Assembly: GCF_004402695.1 (NCBI RefSeq)
Contig: NZ_SOFL01000034.1
Location: 1 to 64,000, forward strand
Direction of reading: 5' to 3'
Length of the DNA: 64,000 nt
Source of the DNA: Cryobacterium adonitolivorans
GTDB taxonomy: Bacteria; Actinomycetota; Actinomycetes; Actinomycetales; Microbacteriaceae
Made by a program: the position numbers and the translations under genes. A model generated the notes under the pieces. It saw only the letters and a program-made list of their open reading frames with translations, was not told the origin of the DNA and did not search any database. Positions 46,567 through 63,806 of the stretch are shown one piece after another; the stretch's first letter is position 1; every line of letters begins with the position of its first letter.

Positions 46567-46702
46567 CTGTCTGGCCGTTTCACCGTAGTTCGCTCCGCGC
46601 CTGCGTTCCGGGCTTTCGCGGCATATCCTCGCTGCGCTTGCGGTATTCCACGTCCCTGCTCTTCGGCACTCCCGCTCTCAATCGATTTCTCTTGCCAGAC
46701 AG
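46567..46702 (+). ncRNA. Repeated structured element, copy 1 (before parB-like gene)
   Basis: Copy 1 of a family of four. Arms CTGTCTGGC (46567-46575) and GCCAGACAG (46694-46702) pair perfectly. Inside, CACCGTAGTTCGC follows the first arm and TCAATCGATTTCTCTT precedes the second, as in the other copies; inner CCGTAG pairs only partly with CTTCGG. A CCGCTGCGCGG hairpin lies 30 bases before. The ParB-like ATG is 33 bases downstream behind GGAGAGAG. It is probably a leader RNA or a single-stranded promoter; function is unknown. Confidence 0.7.
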
Positions 46703-46734
46703 GCAAAAAAATCAGTTGATGGAGAGAGAACCCA

Positions 46735-50011: not shown

Positions 50012-50148
50012 CCTTTCTGGCGTTTCACCGTAGCTCCCTCCCGTGCCTCGTCACCCACATTCTCGGACGCACCCTGCGGGCTTATTTCGCCCGAGAATCC
50101 GTGCACTGCGGCACTCCCGGTCGCTATCGATTTCTCTTGCCAGATAGG
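50012..50148 (+). ncRNA. Repeated structured element, copy 2 (before DUF3560 operon)
   Basis: CCTTTCTGGC (50012-50021) pairs with GCCAGATAGG (50139-50148) with one mismatch. Inside, CCGTAG pairs with CTGCGG (one GU), and ATTCTCGG (50059-50066) pairs perfectly with CCGAGAAT (50091-50098). The single-stranded ATCGATTTCTCTT block is kept. The next ORF is 35 bases downstream behind GAGGAAGAG. Confidence 0.75.
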
Positions 50149-50182
50149 GCAAAAAAACAGTTGTTCACGAGGAAGAGAACCC

Positions 50183-51997: not shown

Positions 51998-52139
51998 CCC
52001 TTGGTGGCCGGTCATCGTAGTTCGCTTGCGTGCCTTCGTCACCCACAATCTGGCACGCGGTCGCAAGCTCCCTTATTTCGCACCAGATTGCGTGCACTAC
52101 GGCACTCCGCTCTCAATCGATTTCTCTTGCCACCAAGGG
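51998..52139 (+). ncRNA. Repeated structured element, copy 3 (before DUF3846 gene)
   Basis: CCCTTGGTGGC (51998-52008) pairs perfectly, 11 bp, with GCCACCAAGGG (52129-52139); the sequence differs from the other copies, so pairing is kept by compensation. Inner CGTAGT (52016-52021) pairs with ACTACG (52096-52101), and CAATCTGG (52046-52053) with CCAGATTG (52083-52090). TCAATCGATTTCTCTT precedes the last arm. The DUF3846 ATG lies 86 bases downstream. Confidence 0.8.
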
Positions 52140-52225
52140 CAGAAAAACGGTGGACGACTACACAATCACTGCCCACGAGAGCCCGGGACCCCGCGTATCT
52201 CACCATCCTTGGAGAGGGAAACACC

Positions 52226-54399: not shown

Positions 54400-54546
54400 G
54401 CCTGTCTAGCCGTTCACCGTAGTTCGCTGCGTGCCTCTCGTTCCAGGCTTTCGCGGCATATCCTCACTCGCTGTGCTCGCTCCGGTATTCCACGACCCTG
54501 CACTACGGCACTCCCGCTCTCAATCGATTCCCTTTGCCAGACAGGC
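54400..54546 (+). ncRNA. Repeated structured element, copy 4 (before NrdH-SSB)
   Basis: GCCTGTCTAGC (54400-54410) pairs with GCCAGACAGGC (54536-54546) with one mismatch. Inner CCGTAGT (54417-54423) pairs perfectly with ACTACGG (54502-54508). The GCTCTCAATCGATTCCCTTTGCC block is shared. The CCGCTGCGCGG hairpin lies 35 bases before. The NrdH ATG is 33 bases downstream behind GGGGAAGGGA. Confidence 0.75.
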
Positions 54547-54579
54547 ACAAAGAATTGTTGGTGGGGAAGGGACAGGGAC

Positions 54580-57102: not shown

Positions 57103-57792
57103 CTACTCACTTGTGGTTGCGTCGAGAGCATCCATGGCGGCAGCCCAGGGGAACGCCTCGATCGCTTCAGGGAACGTAGGAGCTGTCACGCGCTCGGCAA
57201 GAACCCGTCGTGCGGTCATGCCGAACAGGTTCAAGCTGCACGTGTTGGTCGCGGGGTCGGTAGAGAATTCCAGGCGCACGGAGTGGCCCTCGATGGACCC
57301 GAACACGACCGCACCGAAGGGGCCGGCAGGCTGCGCCATCGCCGTGACGAACTCGGAACCGCTCTGAGTCAGGTGGGCATTGATCAGCTCGACAAGCGGC
57401 TTCGTGTCCCGCACGCTGACCATATCCACCGATGGCCGCGGGGGAGCGGGCTGCGGTGGGCTCTGTTTTGCCGCTGCGCGCTCAACAGCCGGCGCCCATA
57501 CCCAGGCGCGGTGAATACCGGCATCCTCCCACTCGACGTACACGGCACGAGGGGTCCATGCCAGGGCTAAGCCGTGAACATGACGAGCTATCGCGGGGTA
57601 TCTCACCCAGGCGAGAACGTGCTTCGGTTCGCCGGCTAGGGCCGCCGGCAGGCCGCCAAGCTCCGGGGGAGTGAGGCTGTACGGGCGCACGACAAACTCG
57701 CCCCCGTGGTCGGGCTCGACCTGCACGAGGGAGTCGGCGCGCACCGTCTGATGCGGGTTCGAGCTGCTGGCACGTCCGGTGCCCGAAGCCAT
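57103..57792 (-). CDS. 229-aa protein of unknown function
   Basis: A protein with a beta-rich N-terminal half (GEFVVRPYSLTPPELGGLPA, HVLAWVRYPAIARHVHGLAL, WTPRAVYVEWEDAGIHRAWV), a Pro linker near 110, and a second half with VDMVSVRDTKPLVELINAHL. No family recognised. It starts two genes of unknown role before the HEPN-like gene. Confidence 0.55.
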   Translation of the reverse strand: MASGTGRASSSNPHQTVRADSLVQVEPDHGGEFVVRPYSLTPPELGGLPAALAGEPKHVLAWVRYPAIARHVHGLALAWTPRAVYVEWEDAGIHRAWVWAPAVERAAAKQSPPQPAPPRPSVDMVSVRDTKPLVELINAHLTQSGSEFVTAMAQPAGPFGAVVFGSIEGHSVRLEFSTDPATNTCSLNLFGMTARRVLAERVTAPTFPEAIEAFPWAAAMDALDATTSE

Positions 57793-58202: not shown

Positions 58203-59129
58203 CTAAACCCAGAGATCGTCCTTCTCGAAGTCATTCGGTGCGTCCATCTCAATGATCCAGTCGTCATCGCCGCTCATGATGTGAGCTTTCAAGCGAGCAG
58301 GGAGGCCTGAATCCGGTTGGATCTTTTTGACGAGATAGGCAGAGTAAACAAGTGCTCTGTAGATCTTTGAATCGTCCGATCCGACGAGAGCCGTGAGTAG
58401 CTGAGGGTCACCCTGCTTTGATAGCTTTATGCCCGTTCCAAAGGTCCTGTTCCAAAGTCTGTTGTGATGGGCGCACGCGTTTCGGATCACCGTCATCTGC
58501 CGCAAATAACTAGCCAGGACGTCCTGGTTCAGCCCGCTGTCGCTAGCAATGGCCTTTCGGAGGCTGTCTATCTTTAGGTTGTCAAACCACTTGGAGAGCA
58601 AGCCCAGACTCATGACTTCGGTTGCCATCCATACCGGTGGGTAGTCGTCGCTGTAGTTGCGAAAGAAGCTCTCAATGAAGACTTCGGTGGGGGGCGCAAG
58701 TCTCTCCCCAAGCTTCGCCTTGTCACGCTTAAGTGCTCCGGGGTTGGCGAAGTACCTGGGGTCGACGTACGCCATGGGGCCGAACTTGTTCGCAAGGTGA
58801 TTGGTGAACTGGCTACGAAACCAAACTTCGACAATCTGAACGCATTCGAGAAGTAATCCGCGCAGCTTCGCATCGAACTCATAGAGGCGGATCACGTCGT
58901 CGAGTGTCGTACCTTCTCTTAGGGCATGAGAGGCATCGGAAGTCTGAAACCACCAGAGGTAGCCAGAGAGGCGATAGTAGCTAGTGCGGCACAAAACTTG
59001 TTCGAGTGCGGCGGTGTCGCAAGTAAGTCCGCGCTCCATGATTCGGGCGCATTGCTGAGCGACGGTCAGAGTCTCCTTGTCGAAAGGAACTCGGGTCGCT
59101 ACCAGCGTCGACGGCACAACACTCGTCAA
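58203..59129 (-). CDS. Abi-family (AbiD/AbiF-like) abortive-infection protein
   Basis: A 308-aa Abi_2 protein. It starts VPFDKETLTVAQQCARIMER, then has SYYRLSGYLWWF, and near the end RNACAHHNRLWN, the Rx4-6H HEPN nuclease motif. AbiD/AbiF proteins stop growth after phage infection. I place the start at the TTG at 59127-59129, because GGGGGAG lies just 5 bases before it and the natural N-terminus fits; a longer frame to 59306 would run through the upstream RNA. A structured RNA precedes it. Confidence 0.8.
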   Translation of the reverse strand: MTSVVPSTLVATRVPFDKETLTVAQQCARIMERGLTCDTAALEQVLCRTSYYRLSGYLWWFQTSDASHALREGTTLDDVIRLYEFDAKLRGLLLECVQIVEVWFRSQFTNHLANKFGPMAYVDPRYFANPGALKRDKAKLGERLAPPTEVFIESFFRNYSDDYPPVWMATEVMSLGLLSKWFDNLKIDSLRKAIASDSGLNQDVLASYLRQMTVIRNACAHHNRLWNRTFGTGIKLSKQGDPQLLTALVGSDDSKIYRALVYSAYLVKKIQPDSGLPARLKAHIMSGDDDWIIEMDAPNDFEKDDLWV

Positions 59130-59143
59130 GAAAACTCCCCCAT

Positions 59144-59215
59144 GAGCAAAAAGAAACCCGCCTATTTGAGGTGCTTGGAAGCATAGCCTTGGCGGGTCTT
59201 GTTGTTGCCATAGTA
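59144..59215 (-). ncRNA. Structured RNA before the Abi gene (abiF-like)
   Basis: On the minus strand, AAGACCCGCC (59200-59191) pairs with GGCGGGTTTC (59162-59153), followed by TTTTTGCTC. A 28-base internal loop includes GCTATGCTTCC and AAGCACC, which itself has short pairing (GCTT/AAGC). A -10 like TACTAT lies before it. The abiF RNA motif, described upstream of Abi genes, is a hairpin in the same place; identity is my recall, not a search. It may be an RNA antitoxin or attenuator. Confidence 0.5.
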
Positions 59216-59365
59216 CCGCATAGTGGCCCATATGCGTTACATCGGTGCCACAGCGGGTGGCCACACCCGGTGGCCACAGTCGGTGGCACCAGCGGACTCC
59301 GAACACAGAGGCAACGCCGGAAACGATCGTTTGCTGGTGTCTGCCGGGTCCTTTGGAAAGGAGCG

Positions 59366-59470: not shown

Positions 59471-60502
59471 TCATCTGTGGATGTTCCACGGGGCCCACCG
59501 TGCCGGCGCGAGGTTAGCTGATGATGAGGGCGAGGGAACGGCTCTTGTCCGGGTGAGCGATGGGACGAGGCGAACGAAGATCACCATTCCTATCAACTCG
59601 ACGAGCGTCTGCGTCACAACGGCAAGAGGGGCGATAGCCAACGATGCCGGGAGCGCCAAGGCGAGAGGGAGCACGACCAAGGAGTTGCGGGTCGATCCGC
59701 TGAAGGCCACCGCGCGCGTTGCTGGCACGTCCAGGCGAGCCATCCGGCCGGCGGTGAGGCCCACGAACAGCATGACCGCCAGGAACGCCACATACAGCGG
59801 CACGACCCGGAGGAGGGCGACCGCCTGCCCGCCGACGGCGGCGATCTGGGAGCCGATCACGACCGCGAGCGTGAGCATCATGAGGGGCACCATCGCCGCC
59901 GCCATCACGACTTCGATCACACGGCCAGCGCGGTGCCGGCGAGCGACGGACTGAATGATCGCGGCAGCCGCAAGCGGTGCAACGATCAAGATCAAGAACG
60001 CCTCCACGAACGGTTCGATCTCGATCAGCTCCACGGCGTCGCCGCCCGCGAACAAGAGCAGGTAGACCGGCAGCAGCACAATCTGTAACAGCATCAGCAA
60101 GGGCGCGGCGGCCAGCAGACGCGCCTTCGCCCCTCCCGCGAGGCCGGTGAACACGATCACGTAGTCGATGCACGGCGTCAGCAGCACCAGAAGGACCCCG
60201 AGGAGAAGCCCGCGGTCGTCGGCAACGAAACGCGACAGCCCGAACACCACTAGCGGCGCGACAACAAAGTTGACGATCAGAACAGTGCCGAGGAACCGGA
60301 GGTCGCGGAACGACCGCGCGACCTCAATGAGAGGAACGCCGAGGAAAGTCGCGAACAGGAGCAGCGCGAGAACCGGATTAATGGCTACTGTCAGGGTCGG
60401 CGCGACTGCCGGAGCCAGCGACCCGACCAGACCCCCGAGAACGATTGCGGCGACATAGAGGGGCACCTGGTGGCGGTCCCACCACTCCGCGATCGTCTTC
60501 AC
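59471..60502 (-). CDS. ACR3/arsenite-type metalloid efflux permease
   Basis: A 343-aa bile-acid:Na symporter-fold permease of the arsenic resistance branch. Ten hydrophobic segments; conserved regions include FLGVPLIEVARSFRDLRF, LLTPCIDYVIVFTGLAGG (with a Cys in the transport helix, as in ACR3) and FSGSTRNSLVVLPLALAL. Arsenite or a related ion is the probable substrate. A GTG at 60500-60502 starts after the last non-membrane residues. Divergent to the MerR-controlled genes. Confidence 0.75.
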   Translation of the reverse strand: MKTIAEWWDRHQVPLYVAAIVLGGLVGSLAPAVAPTLTVAINPVLALLLFATFLGVPLIEVARSFRDLRFLGTVLIVNFVVAPLVVFGLSRFVADDRGLLLGVLLVLLTPCIDYVIVFTGLAGGAKARLLAAAPLLMLLQIVLLPVYLLLFAGGDAVELIEIEPFVEAFLILIVAPLAAAAIIQSVARRHRAGRVIEVVMAAAMVPLMMLTLAVVIGSQIAAVGGQAVALLRVVPLYVAFLAVMLFVGLTAGRMARLDVPATRAVAFSGSTRNSLVVLPLALALPASLAIAPLAVVTQTLVELIGMVIFVRLVPSLTRTRAVPSPSSSANLAPARWAPWNIHR

Positions 60503-60524
60503 CCGCCTCAGCCTAGGGAAGACC

Positions 60525-60555
60525 TTGACCTTGAAGCAGAATGAAGCTTTACCGT
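60525..60555 (+). promoter_or_regulatory. MerR-type promoter, 19-bp spacer (first)
   Basis: TTGACC (60525-60530) and TACCGT (60550-60555) are separated by 19 bases (TTGAAGCAGAATGAAGCTT), the long spacer diagnostic of MerR-controlled promoters, which need the regulator to distort DNA. The transcript start would fall at about 60562, one base before the ATG at 60563, so the message would be leaderless. Confidence 0.75.
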
Positions 60556-60562
60556 GGACAGC

Positions 60563-60898
60563 ATGACCGAGCTGAACTGGGCACCCACGAGCTGCACCAT
60601 CCCAACCGTCGAGCAACCACTCCGCGAAGAGGAATTCGCCGCGCTTTTCCGGGACGCCCTCACCGGGATCGTTCGATCAGATGCGACCACGGCCGTTTTT
60701 CGGTTGCATTCTGAATGCAAAGGCCGGGCACGCGACCTCGCCGCGCGCGAGACGTCATGCTGCTCGTTCTTCACCTTCGCGTTTGACGACCGCGACGGCG
60801 AGCTGGCCATGACGATCACGGTGCCCGAGGCGCAGACGATGGTTCTCACGGCACTCGTCGACGCAGCCGCGCGGGCTGCGCAGCTAGCTGGCGCTTGA
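60563..60898 (+). CDS. Small cysteine-containing protein of the metal module
   Basis: A 111-aa protein with a Cys in TSCTIPTVEQPL, HSECKGRARDLAARE and a CC pair in TSCCSFFTFAF. The paired cysteines suggest metal binding. It lies between two MerR-type promoters and before a MerT-like gene. The ATG at 60563 is used since the GTG at 60554 overlaps the -10. No known family, but the position indicates a role in mercury or arsenic handling. Confidence 0.6.
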   Translation: MTELNWAPTSCTIPTVEQPLREEEFAALFRDALTGIVRSDATTAVFRLHSECKGRARDLAARETSCCSFFTFAFDDRDGELAMTITVPEAQTMVLTALVDAAARAAQLAGA

Positions 60899-60925
60899 CC
60901 TTCGAGCGGGTCGAAGCTCTACCGT
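60895..60925 (+). promoter_or_regulatory. MerR-type promoter, 19-bp spacer (second)
   Basis: TTGACC (60895-60900), spacer TTCGAGCGGGTCGAAGCTC of 19 bases with the dyad CTTCGA-GCGGG-TCGAAG, and TACCGT (60920-60925). This is a very clear MerR operator. It overlaps the end of the first gene. The start point near 60932 is next to the ATG at 60933, again leaderless. Confidence 0.85.
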
Positions 60926-60932
60926 CACTTTC

Positions 60933-61208
60933 ATGACTCGATCACGAACTTTCCCTGGTATCGCTGCGATTGCGGCCGTGGTGCTCGCCTGCGCCGCGTG
61001 CTGCGCCGGCCCCCTTCTCGCGATCGTTGGCAGCATCGGGGCGGCATCCGCGATCGGCGCCCACTGGCTGCCCGGCCTCGCACTCGTCGCCGTGGCCGCA
61101 GGCGCCACAGTAGCCGTGCTCCTGGTGCGTCGACACCGCGTAAAGGCGTGCGTGCTGCCGACCGAACGCTCAACGGCGGGCCGGCCCCGCGACCTCAGCG
61201 TGCGCTGA
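60933..61208 (+). CDS. MerT/MerF-like small metal membrane protein
   Basis: A 91-aa protein with two transmembrane helices: FPGIAAIAAVVLACAACCAG (with the ACC pair), PLLAIVGSIGAASAIGAH, then LPGLALVAVAAGATVAVLLV, and a Cys-containing basic tail (VKACVLPT). The CC in a first helix with GPLLAIVG recalls MerT/MerF mercury importers. The identity is likely but not certain. Its end overlaps merR by 14 bases. Confidence 0.65.
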   Translation: MTRSRTFPGIAAIAAVVLACAACCAGPLLAIVGSIGAASAIGAHWLPGLALVAVAAGATVAVLLVRRHRVKACVLPTERSTAGRPRDLSVR

Positions 61209-61659
61209 GCCCAAAGAGCCGGGCACCCACCGGCGCGTCACCGATGCCGCCTGTGAGCACGACGCAGGCGCACGCATCTGTGCACGGCCCGGCCGGGGGT
61301 GCCTCGGACAGCCGAGCGGCCGCATCTTCCAGCTCGTGTGAAAGCCGGGTCAGGTCCTCGATCTGTGCCCGCGTCTCGGCCAGCCGTGCCGCGACCAACG
61401 GTTGCATCTCGCTCTGCACGTGAGCGCACACATCCGACTCGCGCGCCACCACAAGATCTTTGACCTCCGCGAGGCTCAGATCCAGTCGCTTCGCCCCGGC
61501 GACGAACAGCAGTCGCTCGACATCGGATTCGGTGTACATCCGGTATCCGTTCGCGGCCCGCTTGGCGGGGGAGAGCAGCCCCACACTTTCGTAGTAGCGG
61601 ATGGCGCTCGACGCCAAACCCGTGCGGCTAGCTACTTCGGAAATCCGCAGATCAGTCAT
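61195..61659 (-). CDS. MerR-family metal-responsive regulator
   Basis: A 154-aa MerR protein. The winged helix is MTDLRISEVASRTGLASSAI to RYYESVGLLSPAKRAANGYR. A dimer helix holds VARESDVCAHVQSEMQPLVA, and a C-terminal metal loop GPCTDACACVVL. Cysteines at 78, 126, 130 and 132 parallel the three ligands of MerR. It is convergent with the small membrane gene and would activate the two 19-bp-spacer promoters. The ATG at 61657-61659 is used. Confidence 0.85.
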   Translation of the reverse strand: MTDLRISEVASRTGLASSAIRYYESVGLLSPAKRAANGYRMYTESDVERLLFVAGAKRLDLSLAEVKDLVVARESDVCAHVQSEMQPLVAARLAETRAQIEDLTRLSHELEDAAARLSEAPPAGPCTDACACVVLTGGIGDAPVGARLFGLSAR

Positions 61660-61728
61660 GCACTAACCGTAAACGTTCTAGCCGCTTGAGGGCCTAGTGT
61701 TTCCGGTTCTAGCAAATATCCGGCTCCG

Positions 61729-61869
61729 TTAGCTGTCGTTGTGAGGTCGCAACGCGATCCATAATCCGCATCGTCGGCAGATGAAGCCAGCCCTTCCCAA
61801 CGCGTGCAATTGGTGACGCTGCAAAGTTCTCCCGCAGCAGGAGCAGACGTCGGTCGACTCAGTCTTCAC
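61729..61869 (-). CDS. 46-aa double-CxxC zinc-ribbon protein
   Basis: A short ORF from the GTG at 61867-61869 with VCSCCGRTLQRHQLHALGRA, then FICRRCGLWIAL. Two CxxC pairs with conserved spacing mark a small zinc ribbon. It overlaps the 103-aa gene by 11 bases in another frame, hinting at translational coupling. It lies in the gap before merR and is otherwise unremarkable. Confidence 0.55.
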   Translation of the reverse strand: MKTESTDVCSCCGRTLQRHQLHALGRAGFICRRCGLWIALRPHNDS

Positions 61870-62170
61870 GAGACGCGATTGCCTTCATGAGTTGCTCAGT
61901 TGTAGGGAGGCCCGCTAATCCTGAGGGGGTGAAGTAGATCCGGCAAGCAAGATCTGTTGTTCTGCCGTCTGTGGCAAACAGGTCTTCTCCGTTAAGGGTG
62001 AATGTGGGGGAGCCGGCAAACGGCACCTTGGCTGCGTCTTCAGACGTCCGCAGAAGCCGGTAAGCGACCGCTATGTCAGGGTTCCCGGTGTTATCAAGGG
62101 CAGCCTGTAGGCGGTGGCCAGCCTCGACCCAATTCGGGCACTCATCGATATGCAGTATTTCGATCCTCAT
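61859..62170 (-). CDS. Thioredoxin-like / mercury-associated small protein
   Basis: A 103-aa thioredoxin-fold-like protein: MRIEILHIDECPNWVEAGHR is the DxCPNW-type start, VPFAGSPTFTLNGEDLFATD is the cis-Pro region. Such proteins occur beside merA/merB or arsenic genes in Actinobacteria; one Cys is present instead of CxxC. The substrate is unknown. It is the last gene on the merR side of the first repeat site. Confidence 0.65.
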   Translation of the reverse strand: MRIEILHIDECPNWVEAGHRLQAALDNTGNPDIAVAYRLLRTSEDAAKVPFAGSPTFTLNGEDLFATDGRTTDLACRIYFTPSGLAGLPTTEQLMKAIASRED

Positions 62171-62324
62171 CTACCCATCATCCTCCCGACTCAGAAACGG
62201 GGTGGCCTGGTACAGAACTGTCGAAATCCTCCAATTGGCGCTGCGCTGCCAGAATTGATCGTTTGCGAGCACATCGGCGGCCCCGCCGCTGTGCGTGTGG
62301 ATTGCAGAGGTAAATGGGGGCTTG

Positions 62325-62365
62325 CATCCCATGGGTTATTGGTCGCTTTGGTTACGAGACACATC
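62325..62365 (-). repeat. Recombinase-site-like repeat, copy A
   Basis: CATCCCATGGGTTATTGG, then GGTTACGAGACACATC. The right half is exact; the left half has only GGGTTA. It stands 155 bases before the 103-aa gene. Part of the family with copies near 62.85, 63.77 and 0.1 kb. The surrounding 62171-62418 shows no gene. Confidence 0.5.
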
Positions 62366-62418
62366 AACTTTGCGAGCTCCATCGCTTGACCGCTCGCTAA
62401 ATGCGTGACGCGGGAGTC

Positions 62419-62805
62419 TTAGGAGTCCCTCGCGGCACGTGTTTCTGGATTCGTTCGAAGATGGAACGTCAATGATGCTCCGTATAGGGCGATGACGGTG
62501 CCTACGACCCAAACCGTGGTCGCGGGCCAATTGCTGTTCTGCACGGTTTGCGGGCCGATCGCGTTGTTAGGGCTGTCGTAGGTGCAATTCACGCCGAGGG
62601 GCATGAATGTCCGTTCGCCTGTAACTCGGGTGCCTTCGTTGAAGGGGCCGCCAGACTCGGGAAGGTGCCTCGAGCGCGTGCACTGGACGGCCGGAAGTTC
62701 CTTGCCGTCAAGAGTGATCCCGGCCAAGAATGCGCCTAGGGCGAGCAGGCCGAATACCGTGAGCATAAGAAGCCCTAAGAGCCGACGAAAGCGTGAACTC
62801 GTCAT
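62419..62805 (-). CDS. Membrane protein of unknown function
   Basis: A 128-aa protein with two transmembrane segments, LGLLMLTVFGLLALGAFLAG at the start and TTVWVVGTVIALYGASLTF near the end, and an extracytoplasmic loop with two cysteines (VQCTRSRHL, VNCTYDSP). No family. It is the only gene between repeat copies A and B. The ATG at 62803-62805 is used. Confidence 0.55.
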   Translation of the reverse strand: MTSSRFRRLLGLLMLTVFGLLALGAFLAGITLDGKELPAVQCTRSRHLPESGGPFNEGTRVTGERTFMPLGVNCTYDSPNNAIGPQTVQNSNWPATTVWVVGTVIALYGASLTFHLRTNPETRAARDS

Positions 62806-62852
62806 GCCGCAACCCTATTGGCCTCTATCGCCACAGCGTTGTTGTTGCCTCG

Positions 62853-62893
62853 ATACCCATGGGTTACGAGGCAGTTGGGTTGCGAGACACAAC
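62853..62893 (-). repeat. Recombinase-site-like repeat, copy B
   Basis: ATACCCATGGGTTACGAGGC, then AGTTGGGTTGCGAGACACAAC: two direct copies of GGxTxCGAGxCA with 4-5 bases between, only a few mismatches from copy C. It lies 48 bases before the membrane protein gene. Confidence 0.55.
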
Positions 62894-63021
62894 TCCGTGC
62901 TGGCTCGCGTCGACCAGTGTCGTTGTCCGTGCACGGCTGGGCGAGTCCTAATACTCGGCTACACAGTTCGCCGGGCCCGCTGTTGGCATCGAGACTCAGG
63001 AGAAGCGGCTGGCGCGTGGCT

Positions 63022-63651
63022 TTATGCGCGGCGCGCAGTGAGCGAATATGCCGCGAGCCCGAAGAGGACAGTTCCAGAAAAGCGCTCCATGGTCTTCATT
63101 TTAATGCCAGGTAGGAGACGTCGGACTCCGCTGCCGGTCAGGGCCCAGATCAGGTCCGGGAGCGATGCCATTGCGATGAAGATTAGTCCGAGGACGCTCA
63201 TCTGCACCCAGGCGGGGCCGGCGCCTTCCTTCACGAACGGTGGCAAGAACGAAAGGAAGAACACGGCTGTTTTGGGATTGAGCACCCCGACGAGTAGGCC
63301 GCGCTGGAAGGCCTTCGCGGGTTGGACCCTTGCACCGGTCGTCGCGAGGTCCGCGAGCAACGTGTTATTGCGAGAGCGCCATGCTTGGATGCCCAACCAG
63401 ATCAGGTAGCCCGCCCCCAAGACCTTGACAACGGTGAAAGCCGTCGCGCTGGCCGCGATGACCGCCGAGATGCCGATGACCGCGGCTAATACGTGCGCGA
63501 CGTATCCCAGCTCAACTCCCGCGACTCCACTCAGTCCCGCTCGACGCCCCGAGCTCAGGGTGGTGGTGAGGATGAACGCGACAGAAGGGCCAGGCGCCAG
63601 GACTAAGGGGAGGCAGGCTGCCATGAAAAGGAGAAAAGTGCTCGTCTGCAT
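63022..63651 (-). CDS. LysE/RhtB-family amino-acid exporter
   Basis: A 209-aa exporter. Start LLFMAACLPLVLAPGPSVAF, then HVLAAVIGISAVIAASATAF and GVLNPKTAVFFLSFLPPFV, the hallmark NPK(T/A)xxFFxxFxPxFV motif. It has six helices and would excrete a neutral or basic amino acid such as threonine. The ATG at 63649-63651 has GGAGAG upstream. It is the only gene between repeat copies B and C. Confidence 0.85.
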   Translation of the reverse strand: MQTSTFLLFMAACLPLVLAPGPSVAFILTTTLSSGRRAGLSGVAGVELGYVAHVLAAVIGISAVIAASATAFTVVKVLGAGYLIWLGIQAWRSRNNTLLADLATTGARVQPAKAFQRGLLVGVLNPKTAVFFLSFLPPFVKEGAGPAWVQMSVLGLIFIAMASLPDLIWALTGSGVRRLLPGIKMKTMERFSGTVLFGLAAYSLTARRA

Positions 63652-63767
63652 TAGGTGCTCTCCATCCGTCAGGTGGGGCGAGGCTATCAGCACAGTTGGT
63701 CGGCATTGTTTCGTGTCGTAGTCCCGAAGATGCAGTCGCCAAAGGACTGGTGCCAGCTGTCTCAGTA

Positions 63768-63806
63768 CGCATGGGATACGAGGCATTTAGGTTACGAGAC
63801 ACTTCA
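63768..63806 (-). repeat. Recombinase-site-like repeat, copy C
   Basis: CGCATGGGATACGAGGCATT, then TAGGTTACGAGACACTTC: the best copy, two direct 12-bp motifs. It stands 117 bases before the LysE-like gene. The stretch 63652-63925 shows no other gene. Confidence 0.55.

Follow-up and report, generated by a model that had tools for sequence, protein, structure and literature searches.

The window, that is, the whole 64,000-nucleotide stretch of Cryobacterium adonitolivorans DNA analysed here, carries on its minus strand an Abi family gene with a hairpin-forming RNA element immediately ahead of it (Table 1). The encoded protein matches Pfam PF07751 (Abi_2) at 158.2 bits (E 3.7e-46; cut-off 25.6), the one match to this family in the whole 3.67-Mb assembly, and is also matched by the AbiD profile of PADLOC (E 2.8e-54). 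A single solved relative falls below E 0.001 by sequence, PDB entry 8vz6 (E 2.7e-38), which is named there as “Abi family protein” and appears in the structure search under the title “PbAbiF dimer bound to ncRNA”. The AlphaFold2 model of the protein (mean pLDDT 94.1) has the AbiF fold: Foldseek aligns it with chain 8vz6_A at E 6.1e-16 and a TM score of 0.83, and among solved chains it returned none besides 8vz6 below E 0.001. The stretch RN-x-CAHHNRLWN, in which the HEPN RNase motif lies, shows no variation in 21 aligned proteins except at its third position (residue 218). Family, motif and fold are thus observed, and by analogy with its relatives the protein is probably an AbiF-type HEPN RNase toxin, for which RNase activity and toxicity are predicted.

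Table 1. Features of the abi locus, in window coordinates
Feature	Position	Strand	Evidence
Weak −35 element AACGCA (2/6)	59233–59238	minus	promoter inspection
−10-like element TACTAT, 12 nt before the stem	59210–59215	minus	hexamer survey of 33 loci
abiF-type RNA, predicted antitoxin, about 55 nt	59148–59203	minus	R1 match, RF03085 match, alignment A6
Outer stem, 5' arm AGACCCGCC	59191–59199	minus	fold, descriptor
Inner stem, 5' arm AGG, then conserved CU	59187–59189	minus	descriptor, covariation, R1 matches
Inner stem, 3' arm CCU	59169–59171	minus	descriptor, covariation
Conserved unpaired 3' stretch CAAAUA	59163–59168	minus	CA in 30/34 R1 matches
Outer stem, 3' arm GGCGGGUUU	59154–59162	minus	fold
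U-tract UUUCUUUUU, tail of an intrinsic terminator	59148–59156	minus	sequence; R1 matches
Ribosome binding site GGGGGAG, spacer 5 nt to TTG	59135–59141	minus	sequence
Abi_2 / AbiD-AbiF HEPN protein, 308 aa, TTG start (predicted toxin)	58203–59129	minus	translation, PF07751, PADLOC, PDB, AlphaFold2/Foldseek
HEPN RNase motif RNACAH (R216–H221; R-x4-H)	58467–58484	minus	alignment of 21 proteins

The reading frame, which ends with its stop at 58203, remains open upstream as far as a GTG at 59306. The initial annotation had let the gene begin at a TTG behind a strong ribosome site, and both elements are indeed in place. The TTG at 59129–59127 is the probable start codon, because it has this ribosome site, because a conserved RNA occupies the frame farther upstream, and because the similarity of the relatives begins just before an F-x-KP segment.

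Directly upstream of the gene, the minus strand reads AACAAGACCCGCCAAGGCUAUGCUUCCAAGCACCUCAAAUAGGCGGGUUUCUUUUU. In the hairpin at 59199–59154 the outer stem has 9 bp; an unpaired A separates it from a 3-bp inner stem (AGG/CCU), above which the loop begins with CU. The 3' end of the RNA was placed from the U-tract, and its 5' end from the −10 element and a conserved AACAA. Folded alone, the hairpin reaches −18.1 kcal/mol (z −2.99), a stability equalled by 3 of 200 shuffled sequences; the folding of a 91-nt stretch including the flanks is unexceptional (z −1.54, with 19 of 200 shuffles as stable). A consensus terminator scan, which admits only loops of 3–8 nt, had no result. A descriptor that is blind to letters and requires one stem nested in another, a bulge on the 3' side and a T-rich tail gives this hairpin its top score in the 64 kb on both strands; its forerunners were a motif regular expression, positive at only 3 of 55 loci, and a structural version with a bonus for CU and CA. 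The structured RNA with a U-tract that had been proposed directly upstream of the gene is therefore borne out, since 59148–59200 folds in this way.

The same annotation had raised the possibility that this RNA is the published abiF motif, to be checked with its covariance model. Among 4227 Rfam families searched, RF03085 (abiF RNA) ranked top at 59156–59196 on the minus strand, with an alignment spanning all model positions 1–37; the significance of the match is E 0.0021 in 501 bases and 0.25 in the 58-kb set. The site, the strand and the alignment over the full model thus agree with the proposal, but the score does not: at 29.8 bits, under the cut-off of 37, the published model is by itself not proof. 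At gathering cut-offs neither the window nor the genome has an abiF match, and the window is without a match to any Rfam family; we therefore class the RNA as an abiF-type subtype rather than as a member of RF03085. A second covariance model, R1, was built from 11 relatives with the window excluded. In several rows of the first alignment (A1, 21 motifs) the 3' stem was misaligned; the 11 motifs with one bulge length were kept for training and 10 left out. R1 has a single match in the window, at 59148–59200 on the minus strand (53.5 bits, E 3.2e-13), and this is its only match across the 3.67-Mb genome. Loci of 14 relatives illustrate the difference in reach: 3 pass the RF03085 cut-off, and R1 finds 13 at E ≤ 0.01, 7 of the 14 being training rows. 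The window sequence has the complete core structure, with an outer stem, one unpaired base, a 3-bp inner stem, CU and a CA-led 3' bulge, upstream of an Abi_2 gene, and the match of the window-free model settles the presence of an abiF-type RNA ahead of the Abi gene, in support of the proposal.

The association of RNA and gene was surveyed in 77 sources, comprising the window, 55 relatives from named genomes, 13 loci of related genomes and 8 plasmid relatives; of 16 loci from the window's own and related genomes, the window itself (L056) and the second pieces of two included genes (L068 and L070) were left out. The descriptor is positive upstream of 50 of the 77 Abi_2 starts, the window included, versus 14 of 921 random stretches from the same loci. 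Of these 50, 24 have CU after the inner stem, 29 have CA after its 3' arm and 22 have both, and CU or CA occurs in none of the 14 positive controls. R1 at E ≤ 0.01 matches 32 of the 77 sources (682,797 bases), and all 32 matches (11 training rows and 21 others) adjoin an abi gene, with none elsewhere. The gene's strand holds 31 of them; the remaining one, at L030:3257–3306, is a good abiF-type motif that adjoins its abi gene on the opposite strand. By the descriptor, 27 of 77 upstream stretches have no such hairpin, and R1 at E ≤ 0.01 has no match in 45 of the 77 sources; at the present sensitivity the association is therefore not universal, although some of these loci have partial genes or uncertain starts. 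No relative was found in the viral contigs searched.

Both helices, outer and inner, covary across the relatives. Among the training rows (11), both sides change in 6 of 10 pairs (score 0.495; shuffles 0.158 ± 0.034); all their paired cells are paired, which is no evidence in itself because the rows were chosen by a descriptor that seeks pairing. Across 36 distinct rows of the R1 alignment, which leans towards the structure because it was fitted to the R1 model and which includes three weak matches that have no abi gene beside them, 8 of 10 pairs change on both sides and the score is 0.579, versus 0.158 ± 0.019 for shuffles; structures slid along the same alignment reach at most 0.106. The main types of inner stem are AGG/CCU, CGC/GCG, AGC/GCU, UGC/GCA and GGC/GCC.

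At least five U residues occur within 8 nt past the stem in 28 of the 34 R1 matches adjoining an abi gene, a tally that omits the three matches away from abi genes; a single hairpin thus forms both motif and terminator. With such terminator anatomy, the hairpin might act only as a terminator or attenuator that keeps abi transcription low in cis and has no antitoxin role in trans, and passages of PMC12373285 do describe the RNA's terminator in Clostridioides difficile as lowering abiF expression in cis. A bare terminator would not, however, be expected to keep unpaired residues, and here the unpaired CU is kept in 29 of the 34 matches and the unpaired CA in 30.

Nor would it be expected to remain nearly identical across phyla. 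A BLAST search with the 76-nt RNA stretch against 72,556 plasmid records returned seven, six of them cyanobacterial and one from Acetobacter, with a top match of 91% over 56 nt to pAQ3 of Picosynechococcus PCC 7002 and to a plasmid of PCC 8807. The AbiF protein of pAQ3 is 31% identical to that of the window, and the Abi proteins of L089, L090 and L093 are 31–36% identical to it. Of five cyanobacterial records inspected, four carry a whole gene (L089–L091 and L093), and in these the Abi protein starts at most about 190 nt downstream of the RNA, and the Acetobacter RNA likewise lies upstream of an Abi protein gene. A plasmid of Synechocystis sp. B12 (L092:1501–1554) has an abiF-type RNA after which just the opening portion of an Abi frame can be recognised, overlapping a gene annotated on the other strand. 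An RNA that is better conserved than its protein would fit the pattern of an antitoxin that binds its toxin.

Within the genus, R1 matches 6 of 57 genomes at E ≤ 0.01, and the true abiF core is present in two besides that of the window. Three other candidates (L085–L087) were rejected as abiF RNAs; they resemble plain GC-rich terminators without the CU/CA core, and that such ordinary-looking terminators exist beside the conserved form further argues against an RNA that only terminates. In congener G038 (L083/L064) the abiF-type RNA is intact and the abi gene is broken into two frames. Congener G017 (L084:1467–1566) retains the promoter region and the abiF-type RNA, 101 bp that are 87% identical to L083, and a search within 1.5 kb found no Abi-like protein; here the RNA has no gene to attenuate, and it is possibly a solitary antitoxin. 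Taken with the other evidence, a role confined to termination in cis appears improbable. The loss of the toxin before its RNA in L083 and L084 would be the order expected of an antitoxin, and an apparently lone abiF RNA is reported in cyanophage S-CREM1 in an excerpt of PMC9964418. The same decayed relatives could suggest that the window's unit, too, is a relic, a decayed plasmid passenger without activity. Its frame is open, its RNACAH motif is intact, its model is of high confidence (pLDDT 94.1), and both the RNA and the ribosome site are intact, which makes this reading extremely improbable.

Of 33 loci, 21 have a −10-like hexamer 8–15 nt ahead of the stem, versus 6.7 expected; the opposite-strand R1 match of L030 is left out of this count. 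Promoter, motif and gene follow one another in this order across the relatives. A scan for consensus promoters scored none. If TACTAT serves as the −10 element, the predicted transcript would start near 59203, stop at the U-tract and comprise one motif in about 55 nt. Just upstream of this predicted promoter, at 59243–59287, there are about 3.5 direct copies of a 13-bp unit based on the palindrome GTGGCCAC, the central pair of which is unique in the genome; the array looks like an operator for a regulator.

The window has every sequence feature that an AbiF-AbiFr unit needs, and with considerable confidence we therefore read it as such a toxin-antitoxin pair of a type III-like kind, whose single RNA of about 55 nt would serve as terminator and antitoxin alike. 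The antitoxin role would be carried over by homology from published relatives. Parts of PMC12373285 report for these that toxicity requires the HEPN R and H (in C. difficile), that the RNA is bound directly, that it neutralises in cis and in trans, and that transcription terminates upstream of the gene; the cryo-EM structure of PbAbiF in complex with its RNA, described in sections of PMC12737573, has one short RNA per protein monomer. By analogy, a promoter at about 59210–59238 would make the short RNA, and most transcripts would stop at the hairpin, because the single abiF motif is itself the terminator. The free RNA would bind the AbiF HEPN dimer and hold its RNase shut, and occasional read-through of the U-tract would yield the AbiF message, translated from the GGGGGAG/TTG start. 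A shortage of RNA, as on take-over of transcription by a phage or loss of the plasmid, would set AbiF free to cut RNA, and growth would stop. Toxicity, RNA binding and neutralisation are in this system predicted from the relatives, and the trigger and the benefit, be it phage defence or plasmid retention, are what we would infer from such a scheme. Since the toxin-binding motif and the terminator are the same hairpin, AbiF could also bind the nascent hairpin and so set the read-through into its own gene, the 55-nt element then being sensor, terminator and antitoxin at once and the ratio of toxin to antitoxin being tuned by occupancy; we regard this extension as speculative and rather unlikely.

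Protein antitoxins are known for HEPN toxins of other families, and a protein might likewise hold this toxin, in the manner of HEPN/MNT pairs. On its own strand, however, the abi gene neither touches nor overlaps another gene; the next tested frame below it (57103–57792) has no Pfam match, and the next gene above it, ending at 59471, encodes a transporter of the sodium/bile-acid-symporter type. A protein partner is accordingly very improbable here.

The unit appears, from its surroundings, to be borne on a Cryobacterium-type plasmid. The backbone to its left (ParA, SSB and others) matches pP27867_1 of Cryobacterium arcticum at 89.4% over 6.1 kb and then at 74% as far as 58159, which is 44 bp from the abi stop; past that point pP27867_1 carries instead a hypothetical gene and an N-6 DNA methylase. 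As the homology ends there and the G+C content of the abi gene is 54% (62.6% for the window), the abi gene opens a variable segment, and given the methylase gene shortly beyond the junction in pP27867_1, the region from 58159 rightwards may be a spot at which defence genes are exchanged. The stretch adjoining the abi unit on the other side (59471–63786), with the transporter, a MerR regulator and a LysE-type translocator, is perhaps a metal-resistance segment. Elsewhere in the window there are dispersed repeats of 48–85 bp (46641–46725, 50086–50170, 52107–52154 and 54483–54567), partly shared with a Cryobacterium plasmid, which might be single-strand promoters or similar elements of plasmid leading regions. 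Pseudomonas plasmids have an unannotated stretch with 93.9% identity to 49 bp of the window (54446–54494). None of the papers searched brings Cryobacterium, plasmid and abortive infection together.

A tree of 32 proteins labelled with their RNAs, 4 rows of which are short owing to frame breaks or partial matches, places the window protein, whose branch is long (1.93), with proteobacterial, acidobacterial and cyanobacterial proteins (a set of 15 rows, support 96/93). Both clades tested were named after the tree was seen. The test rejects the one that unites the window with the other actinobacterial AbiF proteins (p-AU 0.0011) and does not reject its union with the AGG-type rows (p 0.189). With the caveat of the long branch, the AbiF-RNA pair was most likely acquired from outside the phylum of its host. 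On the same tree the inner-stem type needs 10 changes, versus a mean of 17.8 and a lowest value of 15 in 300 shuffles, so that RNA type and toxin lineage travel together; the host group needs 16 versus 21.5. This suggests that the RNA type follows the lineage of the toxin rather than the host, which makes the specificity between RNA and toxin testable by swapping pairs.

The window system belongs to a previously described kind and is not a new kind of system. In parts of PMC12737573 and PMC12165695, AbiF is placed at the root of Cas13, and AbiF-AbiFr pairs are proposed as its ancestors. Structurally the closest counterpart to the window protein is PbAbiF, with the same fold over the full length (TM 0.83/0.86), 30% identity and the HEPN motif in register. 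This PbAbiF-AbiFr pair (Prevotellaceae bacterium; PDB 8VZ6) was reportedly described by Zilberzwige-Tal et al. in 2025. It differs in setting, the window system being on an actinobacterial plasmid, and the RNA class of the Bacteroidales relatives compared here differs as well, several having a CGC/GCG inner stem without the CU/CA core. The AbiFCd-RCd22 system of C. difficile prophage phi027, as outlined in portions of PMC12373285, likewise joins an Abi_2 toxin with RN-x-CAH to an abiF RNA in the leader of the toxin gene, with a terminator between; RCd22 is there given two abiF motifs and a separate terminator in 98–132 nt, whereas the single motif of the window doubles as the terminator in a predicted 55 nt or so.

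With RF03085 the window RNA shares, end to end, the core CCCGCC-A-AG ... CUCAAAU-GGCGGGU, and it departs from that model by four extra loop residues and by its AGG/CCU inner stem followed by CUAUGC. The published RNA model thus misses a whole AGG/CCU subtype, found on cyanobacterial, proteobacterial and actinobacterial replicons. Its nearest known forms are the Picosynechococcus plasmid copies (pAQ3 of PCC 7002 and others; L089–L091 and L093), whose RNA is up to 91% identical and also stands beside Abi family genes, but farther from the gene in L089 and L091. The unit also differs from ToxIN, for the window RNA is a single motif without tandem repeats, and the only nearby array (59243–59287) lies upstream of the predicted promoter; as the antitoxin RNA is without such repeats, the unit is better said to work like type III than to be a ToxIN. 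What the window adds to these systems is a minimal, single-motif version of AbiF-AbiFr, with a fused antitoxin-terminator RNA, on an actinobacterial plasmid.
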